Positions 11,794-26,883 of a DNA stretch of 39,504 bases are shown piece by piece (positions within the stretch are counted from its first letter, which is position 1; every line of letters begins with the position of its first letter). Position numbers and translations under genes: made by a program. The notes beneath the pieces are model-generated. The model was not told the origin of the DNA, made no database searches, and saw only the letters and a program-made list of their open reading frames with translations. The DNA comes from Motilimonas sp. E26 (GTDB lineage Bacteria; Pseudomonadota; Gammaproteobacteria; Enterobacterales; CBDFNC01). The stretch spans positions 1 to 39,504 of the forward strand of contig NZ_JAIBHJ010000034.1 of assembly GCF_021278025.1 (NCBI RefSeq). The letters run 5' to 3'.

Positions 11794-11804
11794 TGTAAGA
11801 GATC
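11794..11804 (+). promoter_or_regulatory. Possible UvrY/VarA half-site upstream of csrB
   Basis: TGTAAGAGATC matches the left half of the E. coli UvrY inverted repeat (TGTGAGAGATCTCTTACA) with one difference. The right half is poor. It lies about 195 bases upstream of the proposed csrB start, similar to the upstream position used in enterics. Confidence 0.4.
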
Positions 11805-11980
11805 GGCCATGAGTTGCGTGGTAAAGCGCCCGAAGATACTTTGATTATTTCGCTTTTGTTGTGAACAAAACACTATAACTTAACTTTAAGTTACTGTTTT
11901 TAAATTACTATACTTTATTTTGAATAATTTGTGAGGACTTGATTAGTTCTAAAGTAGGTATTTTCCCCTATTGGATCACG

Positions 11981-11986
11981 TATATT
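11981..11986 (+). promoter_or_regulatory. Candidate -10 of csrB
   Basis: TATATT just before the GACGTAGGGA that begins the GGA-rich RNA. No good -35 is visible at 17 bases, which fits an activator-dependent promoter but is not proof of one. Confidence 0.4.
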
Positions 11987-11990
11987 TAAT

Positions 11991-12396
11991 GACGTAGGGA
12001 CGCAGCAGGAATCGAACAGGATGTTTGATTAGATGTTACCAAGGAGCTGTCACTATCAACTCAAGGACAGAGTCGGTGCTAAACAGGATGTTAGGCAACC
12101 AATGGAAGGTATAAGGAAGCACGCAGGGATAGCGTAATGGTTAGCTTAGGATGGTTGACCGTCAAGGATGAAAAAGGAGATCACAGCAGGATGCTGTAAT
12201 GGACACCTCCAGGAAGGAGAGTAGGACAAATCAGGATGATTTGTTAGTTAGGATGACATAGGGACGACTCAAGGATTGAGGTAAGGAAGCCTTGGAAAGG
12301 CATAAGTCAGGGAGCGCAGGGAGCACTTGGTTCATCAAGGAATGGTGAAGTGACTACGGCCCGATACGAACGTAAGTTTGTATCGGGCCTTCTTTC
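11991..12396 (+). ncRNA. csrB: CsrB-family CsrA-sequestering RNA
   Basis: This roughly 405-base non-coding gene has 26 GGA triplets in about 360 bases, most as AGGA or CAGGAT. Several sit in loops of short hairpins: AATCGAAC-AGGAT-GTTTGATT, ACAGC-AGGAT-GCTGT, ACAAATC-AGGAT-GATTTGT and CTCA-AGGAT-TGAG. Such hairpins bind CsrA dimers in E. coli CsrB, titrating the protein away from mRNA leaders. The beginning (GACGTAGGGA) and an internal GGACACCTCCAGGA also resemble E. coli CsrB. It ends in a strong terminator (12358-12396). The 5' end is estimated from the motif start and a TATATT -10. It is expected to be activated by the BarA/UvrY-type two-component system. Confidence 0.9.
12358..12396 (+). 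terminator. Terminator of csrB
   Basis: GGCCCGATACGAAC (12358-12371) and GTTTGTATCGGGCC (12376-12389) form a 14-bp stem with one G-T wobble, closed by a GTAA (GNRA) tetraloop and followed by TTCTTTC. Confidence 0.9.
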
Positions 12397-12591
12397 TTCT
12401 GAGCACTAAGTCTTGTTTATAAGTTAGCTGCCAAATGAATTAGTTTGTTCCATAAGCGACATAGTGGTATTACTACAATGCCTTTCCTGGAGCTTGCAAA
12501 AAGTGCAGTGAATATGTCCTATATGCGCTTTGTGTTTTCATCGCTGAAAACGAAATTGGGCCGTTGCGCTCGGCCTAAACAAAGCCGAAGG

Positions 12592-12849
12592 TTAAGTGAG
12601 CACTAATAAGCCGTTAAATTCAACAGCCGAATCGGGCGTGAGCTCAAAGTGAGTTTGCCAGCCGCCGCAATGTACCGACAAGATACTCATGTTAGTTTGG
12701 TGCTGTAGTGCAATATGTTGCGCTTGTACCTGCAACACTATGCTATTGGTATGAGTTTTTAGTTGGATTTTATCTTGCTCAAGTAAATGAGCCGTAAAAA
12801 ACTCGCCGCTGGTCAAACGTCCCTCTGCCAGTAATGCTAAATCAGCCAC
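12592..12849 (-). CDS. Hypothetical 85-aa protein downstream of topB
   Basis: Starts with GTG at 12849 behind a good AAAGGGG eight bases upstream, 15 bases after the topB stop, so it is very likely co-transcribed with topB. The product is soluble and probably beta-rich (KIQLKTHTNSIVLQVQAQHI, then GGWQTHFEL). I recognise no family. The operon link suggests, but does not show, a role near DNA topology. Confidence 0.65.
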   Translation of the reverse strand: MADLALLAEGRLTSGEFFTAHLLEQDKIQLKTHTNSIVLQVQAQHIALQHQTNMSILSVHCGGWQTHFELTPDSAVEFNGLLVLT

Positions 12850-12864
12850 TGTTTATCCCCTTTA

Positions 12865-14811
12865 TTAGTTGTTGGATTTAAGCTTAGTGCGGCTTGGCTT
12901 TTTTGCTGTATTGGTTTTACGTTTGTATTGTCGAAATGGTTTTTTCTTAGGCGCAACATCTTTTAACTGGCTTAATGCTGAGGCAGGCATGTGTTTAGCT
13001 TGCTCGATAAGCTGATTTAGCTGGTTCAGTAATTGATCCATAAAGTGCTGATAGCTGGCCTCTTTTTGGCATATTTTTTCGAGTTGATATTCCCAGTGTG
13101 CAGTCATGTCGGGACGAGTTGAGGTTTCAGGCAAGCTTAAAATTAACGCCTTACCCACCACTGTGGCCGCGATTTGTTTGCCGCTACGCTGTAAAAAGCC
13201 ACGTTTAAATAACAGCTCGATAATGCTGGCTCGGGTTGCTTCTGTACCTAAGCCATCAGTGTCTTTTAAAATTTTCCTTAAATCTGCATCGATGACGTAG
13301 CGGCCAATTCCCGTCATTGCAGCCAGTAGAGTGGCATCGGTAAAATGCTCTGGTGGTTGAGTATTTTTTTCCACGAGCTCGCCGTGATCGCAAGTGAGTA
13401 TTTTGCCTACTTTGACTATAGGTAAGCTGACTTCTGCTTGTTGTTTCGGTTTGCTTAATAATTGCTTCCAGCCCAAATTTAGCGTTGCTTTGGTTTTAGC
13501 GCAAAATTGGCCACCTTTAATATCTAACATAATGGTTTGATTTTGATATTCAAAATCAGGGAAAAACTGTGCTAAGTATTGCAGCGAAATTAACTCGTAA
13601 AGCTTACGCTCGCTGGCGCCGAGTTTATCTGCATTATAGGTTTTTAGGGTCGGGATAATGGCATGATGGGCGGTGACTTTTTTATCGTTCCAGCAGCGAC
13701 TTTTTTGCAGCCAATTGGCTTGCTGGATAAGGGGTTGTAGTGGCGGTAAATTTTGCAGCAATACTTGACCAATGGCACTGGCTTGTTTGAATTGGTCGGC
13801 AGGCAAATGACGACAGTCAGAGCGCGGGTAGGTGATGAGTTTGTATTCTTCATACAGCTTTTGACAGCTTGAAAGTACTTGGCTGGCACTCATCCCAAAA
13901 CGTTTGGCCGCTTCTATTTGCAAGCTGGATAAACTAAAGGGTAACGGCGCCGCTTGGCGTTTCTTCTCTTGCTTGTTGCTAAGTACTTTTGCTGGTTGCT
14001 GGTGGATCTTCTCCACCACTTTTTCCGCTAATCCTTTTACCAGTACGCGGCCTTGGTCGTCTTGGTAGGGTAAACAAGCCTCACTGGGCAGCCACTTGGC
14101 TGTAAAGGTTTCATTATTGTTGGTTTGCACGTGAGCCAGCACCTCATAAAAAGGCTTGCTGACAAAGTTTTCAATCTCTAAATCACGTCGCACCACTAGC
14201 CCAAGTAAAGGAGTTTGCACGCGGCCAACAGAAAGCACACCGTGGTAGCCAGCTTGTTGTCCTTGAATGGTGTAGGCTCGGGTCATATTCATGCCGTAGA
14301 GCCAGTCGGCGCGACTGCGTGCCAGTGCTGAGATAGAAAGTGAGATGAAATCTTGATTACTGCGTAAGTTGGCGAGGGCCTGTTTCACTGCGCTAGGATT
14401 TAAATCATTGATTAAACAACGCTGAACTTGTTGGCGTTTGGTTTGGCTAATGCCGGCATGATTGATCACCTCATCTACTAGCAGTTGTCCCTCGCGATCA
14501 GGATCGCCTGCGTGCACGATTTGACTGGCCTTTTTTATTAGTTTTTTTAGGATACTTAGTTGTTTAACAGTGCCTTTTTTTGCTTTTAGTTGCCAATCGT
14601 TCGGCGCGATAGGCAAGTGCTCTAAGCGCCACTTTTTATATTGCTCACCGTAGTGGTCAGGCTCAGCTTGCTCGAGTAAATGGCCAATACACCAAGAAAT
14701 ACAATCACCATTAGGCAGGGTGATCATGCCCTCGGCTTTTTGCTGTGGCTTGGGCATGACTTCGGCAATGGCACGGGCTAAGCTAGGTTTTTCGGCAATA
14801 TAGAGTTTCAC
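12865..14811 (-). CDS. topB: DNA topoisomerase III
   Basis: A type IA topoisomerase of about 648 aa that decatenates DNA and resolves recombination and replication intermediates with RecQ-type helicases. Visible are the Toprim start (LYIAEKPSLARAIAEVMPKP), the acidic HAGDPDREGQLL motif, SVGRVQTPLLG and the active-site region LITYPRSDC. The frame extends to a TTG at 14832, but starting at the GTG at 14811 puts the catalytic Tyr at residue 328, as in E. coli TopB, so I prefer it although its ribosome binding site is weak. The C-terminus is a Lys/Arg-rich tail. A small gene follows in the same direction. Confidence 0.95.
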   Translation of the reverse strand: MKLYIAEKPSLARAIAEVMPKPQQKAEGMITLPNGDCISWCIGHLLEQAEPDHYGEQYKKWRLEHLPIAPNDWQLKAKKGTVKQLSILKKLIKKASQIVHAGDPDREGQLLVDEVINHAGISQTKRQQVQRCLINDLNPSAVKQALANLRSNQDFISLSISALARSRADWLYGMNMTRAYTIQGQQAGYHGVLSVGRVQTPLLGLVVRRDLEIENFVSKPFYEVLAHVQTNNNETFTAKWLPSEACLPYQDDQGRVLVKGLAEKVVEKIHQQPAKVLSNKQEKKRQAAPLPFSLSSLQIEAAKRFGMSASQVLSSCQKLYEEYKLITYPRSDCRHLPADQFKQASAIGQVLLQNLPPLQPLIQQANWLQKSRCWNDKKVTAHHAIIPTLKTYNADKLGASERKLYELISLQYLAQFFPDFEYQNQTIMLDIKGGQFCAKTKATLNLGWKQLLSKPKQQAEVSLPIVKVGKILTCDHGELVEKNTQPPEHFTDATLLAAMTGIGRYVIDADLRKILKDTDGLGTEATRASIIELLFKRGFLQRSGKQIAATVVGKALILSLPETSTRPDMTAHWEYQLEKICQKEASYQHFMDQLLNQLNQLIEQAKHMPASALSQLKDVAPKKKPFRQYKRKTNTAKKPSRTKLKSNN

Positions 14812-14909
14812 GGCGTTAATATAACTGTTCAAATATACAGTTATGTTAACTGCTTTATCTCAATTGTGCCACAGGCCTGCGTGATAACCTTAAAGCTGCT
14901 GTGTGAAGA

Positions 14910-26073: not shown

Positions 26074-26166
26074 TGGCGGTGAAGGAGGGATTTGAACCCT
26101 CGATGGGGCTACAAACCCCATACTCCCTTAGCAGGGGAGCGCCTTCGGCCACTCGGCCACCTCACC
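26074..26166 (-). tRNA. tRNA-Ser (GCT)
   Basis: The minus strand gives GGTGAGG...CCTTCACCGCCA with encoded CCA. Anticodon arm CTCCC-CTGCTAA-GGGAG, anticodon GCT. It has a long variable arm, as class II tRNAs do. Last gene of the seven-tRNA operon. Confidence 0.94.
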
Positions 26167-26180
26167 GGTATTCGGGAATA

Positions 26181-26264
26181 TGGTGGGGGGGGACGGATTC
26201 GAACCATCGAAGCTTTCGCGGCAGATTTACAATCTGCTCCCTTTGGCCACTCGGGAACCCCCCC
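26181..26264 (-). tRNA. tRNA-Tyr (GTA)
   Basis: The minus strand starts with seven G (acceptor GGGGGGG) and ends CCCCCCCACCA. Anticodon arm GCAGATTGTAAATCTGC gives GTA. A variable arm of class II type is present. The all-G:C acceptor stem is notable. Confidence 0.94.
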
Positions 26265-26304
26265 AAGAACTTTTAACTTATTAGCGATGCTAATTAGTTG
26301 AATG

Positions 26305-26379
26305 TGGCAGGGATATGAGGATTTGAACCTCAGAATGCCGAGATCAAAACCCGGTGCCTTACCGCTTGGCGATATCCCT
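26305..26379 (-). tRNA. tRNA-Gln (TTG)
   Basis: Acceptor AGGGATA pairs with TATCCCT, then GCCA. Anticodon arm CCGGG-TTTTGAT-CTCGG gives TTG. Sequence is close to E. coli tRNA-Gln. Confidence 0.93.
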
Positions 26380-26490
26380 GTTGTAGTGTTTTATCGAGTT
26401 GACTCTCGCGGTTGAGGATAACATGTTAAAGGAGCCGAACCCTATAACGGTTATCTAACCTAACTATTTAAAGAGTGCTAACTCTGAATA

Positions 26491-26581
<91 letters not shown>

Positions 26582-26600
26582 GTAATTCTCTAAATTGTAA

Positions 26601-26685
26601 TGGTGCGGAAGGAGAGACTTGAACTCTCACACCTTACGGCACTAGAACCTAAATCTAGCGTGTCTACCAATTTCACCACTTCCGC
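26601..26685 (-). tRNA. tRNA-Leu (TAG)
   Basis: Acceptor GCGGAAG / CTTCCGC, then ACCA. Anticodon arm CTAGATTTAGGTTCTAG gives TAG. A class II variable arm is present. Confidence 0.94.
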
Positions 26686-26726
26686 ATCATATTAGATTGC
26701 TGATCTCAATATCAACATTCTAAATT

Positions 26727-26802
26727 TGGCTCCTCCTGCTGGGATTGAACCAGCGACCTGCGGATTAACAGTCCGTCGCTCTACCAGCTGAGCTAAGGAG
26801 GA
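26727..26802 (-). tRNA. tRNA-Asn (GTT)
   Basis: Acceptor TCCTCCT / AGGAGGA, then GCCA. Anticodon loop within CGGACTGTTAATCCG gives GTT. Encoded CCA. Confidence 0.94.
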
Positions 26803-26806
26803 ATAG

Positions 26807-26883
<77 letters not shown>

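Follow-up and report, generated by a model that had tools for sequence, protein, structure and literature searches.

Positions 11991-12396 of the window (the whole stretch of 39,504 nucleotides that was analysed, from Motilimonas sp. E26) almost certainly encode a CsrB-type small RNA. We read this gene, with high confidence, as one of four CsrB siblings of the genome, activated by UvrY, whose RNA acts as a sponge for many CsrA dimers and has probably gained its extra length by duplication of a module. The sequence, the family match, the predicted structure, the UvrY-type box and the copies were observed; from them we infer transcription, control by UvrY and binding of CsrA, and from alignments alone the duplication. 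In many Gammaproteobacteria, carbon metabolism, motility and the formation of biofilms are under the control of the Csr system. The CsrB family and its mechanism of CsrA sequestration are already known. By its kind, the window gene is an ordinary member of this family; its mode of length evolution is unusual.

Identity and genomic context of the gene

A direct count in 11991-12396 (406 nt) gives 26 GGA motifs, the number reported in the original prediction. Dinucleotide shuffles of these positions (n = 1000) contained 14.6 GGA on average and 24 at most, and the richest other 406-nt window of the 39.5 kb (both strands, steps of 10) contained 13. The predicted fold has an energy of -124.9 kcal/mol (z -4.8), a stability reached by 0 of 100 shuffles. 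GGA is present in 12 of the 13 predicted MFE hairpin loops (closing pair counted), so that the earlier figure of at least five motifs in loops was too low. The mean unpaired probability is predicted to be 0.81 for GGA versus 0.42 for all triplets, and it exceeds 0.7 for 18 of the 26 motifs. No ORF of at least 50 aa, the sizes covered by the listing, overlaps 11991-12396, in agreement with the claimed lack of a coding frame.

The Rfam CsrB model RF00018 (gathering score of 71 bits), proposed as a check together with the original prediction, matches 12102-12400 over its full length (1-356) with 80.9 bits and an E-value of 3.9e-20. This match above the cut-off, the 26 GGA and the 14-bp terminator uphold the CsrB identity first suggested. 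It had also been stated that such RNAs are often missed in annotation; this finds no support here, since a standard Rfam scan detects the window gene. The likely gene exceeds the model in length and extends about 110 nt upstream of the match, with 6 of the 26 GGA in this part. An intergenic stretch without function, rich in GGA by chance, is an explanation of negligible probability: the GGA count is above those of all 1000 shuffles and of all the other windows scanned, and the comparative evidence (Rfam match, covariation and conserved promoter islands) contradicts it.

The 4.6-Mb genome contains four CsrB genes, all above the RF00018 cut-off, among which the window copy has the third score. 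A single csrA match is also present, in a 60-aa frame and with 89.6 bits, as is a UvrY relative that shares 74% identity with the query; the ORF that follows this relative is presumably uvrC. A distant blastn of 11900-12420 against the plasmid collection gave no match. In the single genome of M. pumila (G003), RF00018 exceeds its cut-off seven times, and two of these CsrB matches form a tandem with a distance of about 350 nt. No description of a Csr RNA of Motilimonas was found in the literature searched, which was represented by partial texts. PMC13182010 tabulates Motilimonas sp. E26, and its main text has no mention of csr, ncRNA or small RNA.

The gene was originally located in the gap between a cold-shock gene and topB. 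Both neighbours are indeed present (Table 1), the type IA topoisomerase gene being the one that we take to be topB (93% identical to M. cestriensis), but an 85-aa ORF intervenes before topB. M. cestriensis has a counterpart of this ORF with 91% identity (over 77 aa) and M. eburnea one with 48%, and the search of M. pumila loci at E 1e-5 detected none. The cold-shock (csp) gene is found at all 3 counterpart loci (M. cestriensis MKS20, M. eburnea YH6 and M. pumila PLHSC7-2) versus none of 12 other csrB loci (flanks of about 2-3 kb; L036 left out). Elsewhere in the window, a cluster of seven tRNA genes occupies 26077-26883 on the minus strand.

Table 1. Coordinates of the CsrB-type gene, its parts and its neighbours in the window.
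Feature	Positions	Strand	Basis or remark
Cold-shock-domain protein, 69 aa	11239-11448	-	Pfam
UvrY/GacA-type box TGTAAGAGATCGGCCATG	11794-11811	+	Begins 187 nt upstream of -10; pattern match, ortholog alignment, published site form
Conserved promoter element GTAGGTATTTTCCC	11954-11967	+	Just upstream of -10; nearly identical in 4 orthologs
-10-like hexamer TATATT	11981-11986	+	Sequence; ortholog -10-like hexamers aligned
CsrB-type sRNA gene	11991-12399	+	RF00018 match, 26 GGA, fold; putative start, end at the T tract of the terminator
5' segment, GGA-rich	11991-12069	+	No blastn match in three Motilimonas orthologs
Module copy 1, GGA-loop hairpins	12070-12138	+	Aligns to 37-104 of sibling G000:C84; 0/500 GGA-keeping shuffles as good
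Module copy 2, canonical block of copy 1	12146-12204	+	Aligns to G000:C84 50-108, M. eburnea C55 49-107 and M. pumila C52 49-109; 0/500 shuffles as good for each
Hairpin CTCC-AGGAA-GGAG	12207-12219	+	In the conserved 3' half; pairing in 96.1% of cells (19 Motilimonas copies); 0 pairs changed on both sides
Hairpin ACAAATC-AGGAT-GATTTGT	12226-12244	+	In the conserved 3' half; pairing in 100% of cells (19 copies); 3/7 pairs changed on both sides
Intrinsic terminator	12358-12399	+	14-bp stem 12358-12389, 4-nt loop, T-rich tail TTCTTTCTTC
85-aa ORF between the RNA and topB	12592-12849	-	No Pfam match
Type IA topoisomerase	12865-14832	-	Pfam

Promoter region, UvrY-type box and conserved helices

The 17-nt sequence TGTAAGAGATCGGCCAT of the UvrY-type box is found at 11794-11810. 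The pattern TGTRNGANATNNRCYAT was derived from the upstream regions of Motilimonas csrB genes. It occurs 5 times in the window genome, 4 of these upstream of the four csrB genes, and its backwards-read control occurs once; as the pattern was drawn from csrB sites, this genome scan tests specificity only. Around the fifth box (G000:C9:77152-77168, minus strand), an Rfam scan of 3.1 kb gave nothing at E-values up to 0.1, and therefore no fifth csrB was found there; this box is possibly a further UvrY target or due to chance. In the four genes of the window genome, the box precedes the -10 by 175-199 nt, and in 18 of 19 copies from four Motilimonas species by 174-199 nt. For the 19th copy (M. pumila C117c), it falls outside the scanned stretch and is visible in the upstream sequence and in the ortholog alignment.

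The distance between the box and the -10 is 187 nt in the three measured orthologs of the window locus, versus 197-199 or 174-175 nt in the other 15 copies. Moreover, the inferred whole transcripts of the three siblings in the window genome contain 15, 20 and 13 GGA, versus 26 in the window copy. Both observations would fit a specialised sibling that shares the sponge mechanism and differs from the other three CsrB RNAs in its input or its capacity. We consider this alternative possible, with the balance leaning against it: in the available parts of PMC6262261, the csrB copies of V. tasmaniensis are described as differently regulated, but also as mostly redundant.

Because TATATT at 11981-11986 aligns with the -10-like hexamers of three orthologs, the start of the sRNA may be placed at about 11991-11994, in accordance with the 5' end guessed in the original prediction. 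A sigma-70 consensus scan scored no -35/-10 pair at this proposed start, and the consensus promoter scan gave 3 promoter-like matches versus 2.8 expected by chance. Stretches resembling GGTTTTCCC or GGAAAACCC are found upstream of other csrB copies. At the other end of the gene, the 14-bp terminator predicted earlier was recovered as a stem of 14 pairs followed by the T-rich tail (Table 1).

Eight helices were read from the 3' half of the window gene and followed in 19 aligned copies of the four Motilimonas species. They are paired in 91.2% of 811 cells, and 17 of their 45 pairs changed on both sides; the controls with slid partners reached at most 46.6% of cells and 9 pairs. Among five covariation measures, four were reached by 0 of 500 shuffles, and further pair types were reached by 362 of 500. 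The helices were read from the window sequence itself, and the structure is therefore favoured over the slid controls. Within this predicted structure, support is good for the terminator and for the hairpin at 12226-12244. It is weaker for the other helices, because the terminator accounts for 11 of the 17 pairs that changed on both sides (11 of its 14 pairs), helix 4 is paired in 66.1% of cells and the structure comes from one sequence. In the window copy, helix 6 also contains a C-A mismatch.

Divergence of the 5' half and probable duplication of a hairpin module

The orthologs at the csp-flanked locus of the four species measure 371, 406, 474 and 641 nt, with 27, 26, 26 and 38 GGA, respectively. 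The M. cestriensis counterpart contains an 85-nt unit in 2.1 copies, and that of M. pumila a 54-nt tandem repeat in 3.3 copies (L046, 2391-2569). The latter is taken as an ortholog on the basis of the neighbouring csp gene (85.5% identical) and of its promoter; a tree built from the 3' part separates the M. pumila copy, on a long branch, from the other three, and this placement is weakly supported.

The three sibling csrB genes of the window genome are 95.8-97.2% identical to their M. cestriensis orthologs, with a length difference of 0-1 nt. The window copy measures 406 nt versus 371 nt for its M. cestriensis ortholog. The 3' part is 93.5% identical between the two, and the 5' parts (146 nt in the window, 112 nt in M. 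cestriensis) are only 52.5% identical, in the range of 100 shuffles (mean 49.5%, maximum 54.9%). Such a 5' half, next to three well conserved siblings, could suggest a decaying copy, which as one of four has lost its constraint, drifts and no longer matters. Its Rfam score below those of two siblings and the presence of GGA in just 7 of the 14 predicted hairpin loops of the M. pumila ortholog point in the same direction. This decay is nevertheless very improbable: the box, the -10-like hexamer (weakest in M. pumila) and the terminator are retained in all four species, the orthologs are still rich in GGA (26-38 each) and the 3' part has kept its high identity to M. cestriensis.

The window copy was compared with five sibling CsrB: G000:C84, G000:C30, G000:C32, M. 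eburnea C55 and M. pumila C52. A module duplication is suggested because two adjoining stretches resemble one canonical CsrB block. Both stretches fall on a single block clearly for 2 of the 5 siblings, C84 and C55; on C55, copy 1 is delimited as 12065-12132 and aligns to 34-96, with 0 of 500 GGA-keeping shuffles as good. G000:C32 places both stretches on one block weakly, shuffles being as good in 1 and 14 cases of 500. With G000:C30, copy 2 pairs with 25-92, and 11991-12056 pairs with the start of the sibling, resembling its first 67 nt (score of 20; best of 500 shuffles 19). For M. pumila C52, a single wide match pairs 11996-12096 with 5-101, in addition to the match of copy 2. When aligned directly with each other, the two stretches show a weak similarity (score of 18, 1 of 1000 shuffles as good). 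TRF detected no tandem repeat in the window gene, and the duplication is seen by alignment to the siblings alone. The extra length of the window copy is probably an old duplication of a module of about 60-70 nt made of GGA hairpins.

Repeat-array relatives, known systems and significance

Moritella has a CsrB gene in the form of a tandem array, with up to 12.6 copies of a unit of 51 nt. Array-type matches were found in 9 of 11 Moritella genomes (none in 2 draft genomes among the 11), and tandem repeats of about 50-52 nt were confirmed in loci of all 9. The array loci L130, L131 and L136-L143 belong to the genomes G004, G050 and G070-G076, and RF00018 exceeds its cut-off in all five array loci scanned (L130, L131, L136, L142 and L143), twice in L142. 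The 11 complete copies, those with both ends found, come from 8 of the 10 loci, L136 and L139 having given none by the patterns used. They measure 337-851 nt with 22-62 GGA, and the box is always 197 nt before the -10; this count leaves out two terminators for which the stretch contained no -10 and, in L142, one GGA island out of two. The number of units varies between copies within one Moritella genome. An origin of the array by assembly error alone is unlikely, because five of the nine genomes (G004, G050, G070, G075 and G076) are assembled in 1-3 contigs. In L130 and L131, the two loci where adjacency was examined, we take the ORF adjoining the array to be DEAD-box helicase-like. Shorter arrays with units of 50-57 nt are present in L144 (Photobacterium iliopiscarium), L027 and L023/L133. 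Within the limits of the literature listings searched, no published repeat-array CsrB gene was found.

E. coli CsrB has 366 nt and 22 putative sites (PMC3856055). The window RNA is similar in its GGA in hairpin loops, its terminator, its far-upstream UvrY-type box and its end-to-end match to the Rfam model, and differs in being about 40 nt longer, with 26 GGA and a probable duplicated module. The UvrY site of E. coli csrB, TGTGAGAGATCTCTTACA, is an inverted repeat centred at -183/-182 (PMC4682653), whereas the centre of the window box would be near -190 from the inferred start. The published csrB and csrC sites share the form of the window box, which resembles the less symmetric csrC form, represented in Salmonella by TGTGAGACATTGACCATT (PMC4682653). 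V. tasmaniensis also has several sibling genes in one genome, csrB1-4, with one recent duplicate (PMC6262261); in contrast, the probable window duplication is inside one gene, and a change of array length is not described in the available parts of that paper. Pseudoalteromonas fuliginea Pf1, Pf2 and Pf3, with 25, 21 and 9 GGA, are likewise GGA-bearing Csr sRNAs of a marine gammaproteobacterium, and were tested experimentally (PMC11882849), whereas the window RNA is a predicted one.

Phosphorylated UvrY would bind the box near 11802 and switch on transcription from about 11993. The resulting RNA of about 405 nt, as modelled, would expose up to 26 GGA sites, mostly in hairpin loops, and stop at the terminator at 12358-12389. 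CsrB-family RNAs bind many CsrA dimers and thereby free the mRNAs controlled by CsrA (PMC3856055, PMC11882849). By analogy, the window RNA would bind many CsrA dimers, so that these mRNAs would be released when BarA-UvrY is active. More modules would mean more CsrA held per transcript.

In the window copy and the genes nearest to it, length changes through the gain or loss of putative CsrA-binding hairpins, which is less familiar for the family. We tentatively propose, close to an even chance though just short of it, that some CsrB loci are accordion genes. In such genes the promoter and the 3' half would be fixed, and an array of 50-85-nt GGA-hairpin modules would expand and contract by tandem duplication, setting the CsrA capacity. 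This proposal is based on the one probable old duplication in the window, on the 371-641 nt of the Motilimonas orthologs and on the VNTR-like arrays of Moritella (51-nt units in as many as 12.6 copies, with 62 GGA and 851 nt). These genes provide a natural series, in which each RNA has from 22 to 62 GGA in Moritella and from 26 to 38 at the window locus of Motilimonas. With this series one can ask what effect the number of CsrA sites in a sponge RNA has on regulation, and whether selection acts on that number. If the proposal is true and array length varies between strains, the array would set the action of a global regulator in a heritable way.
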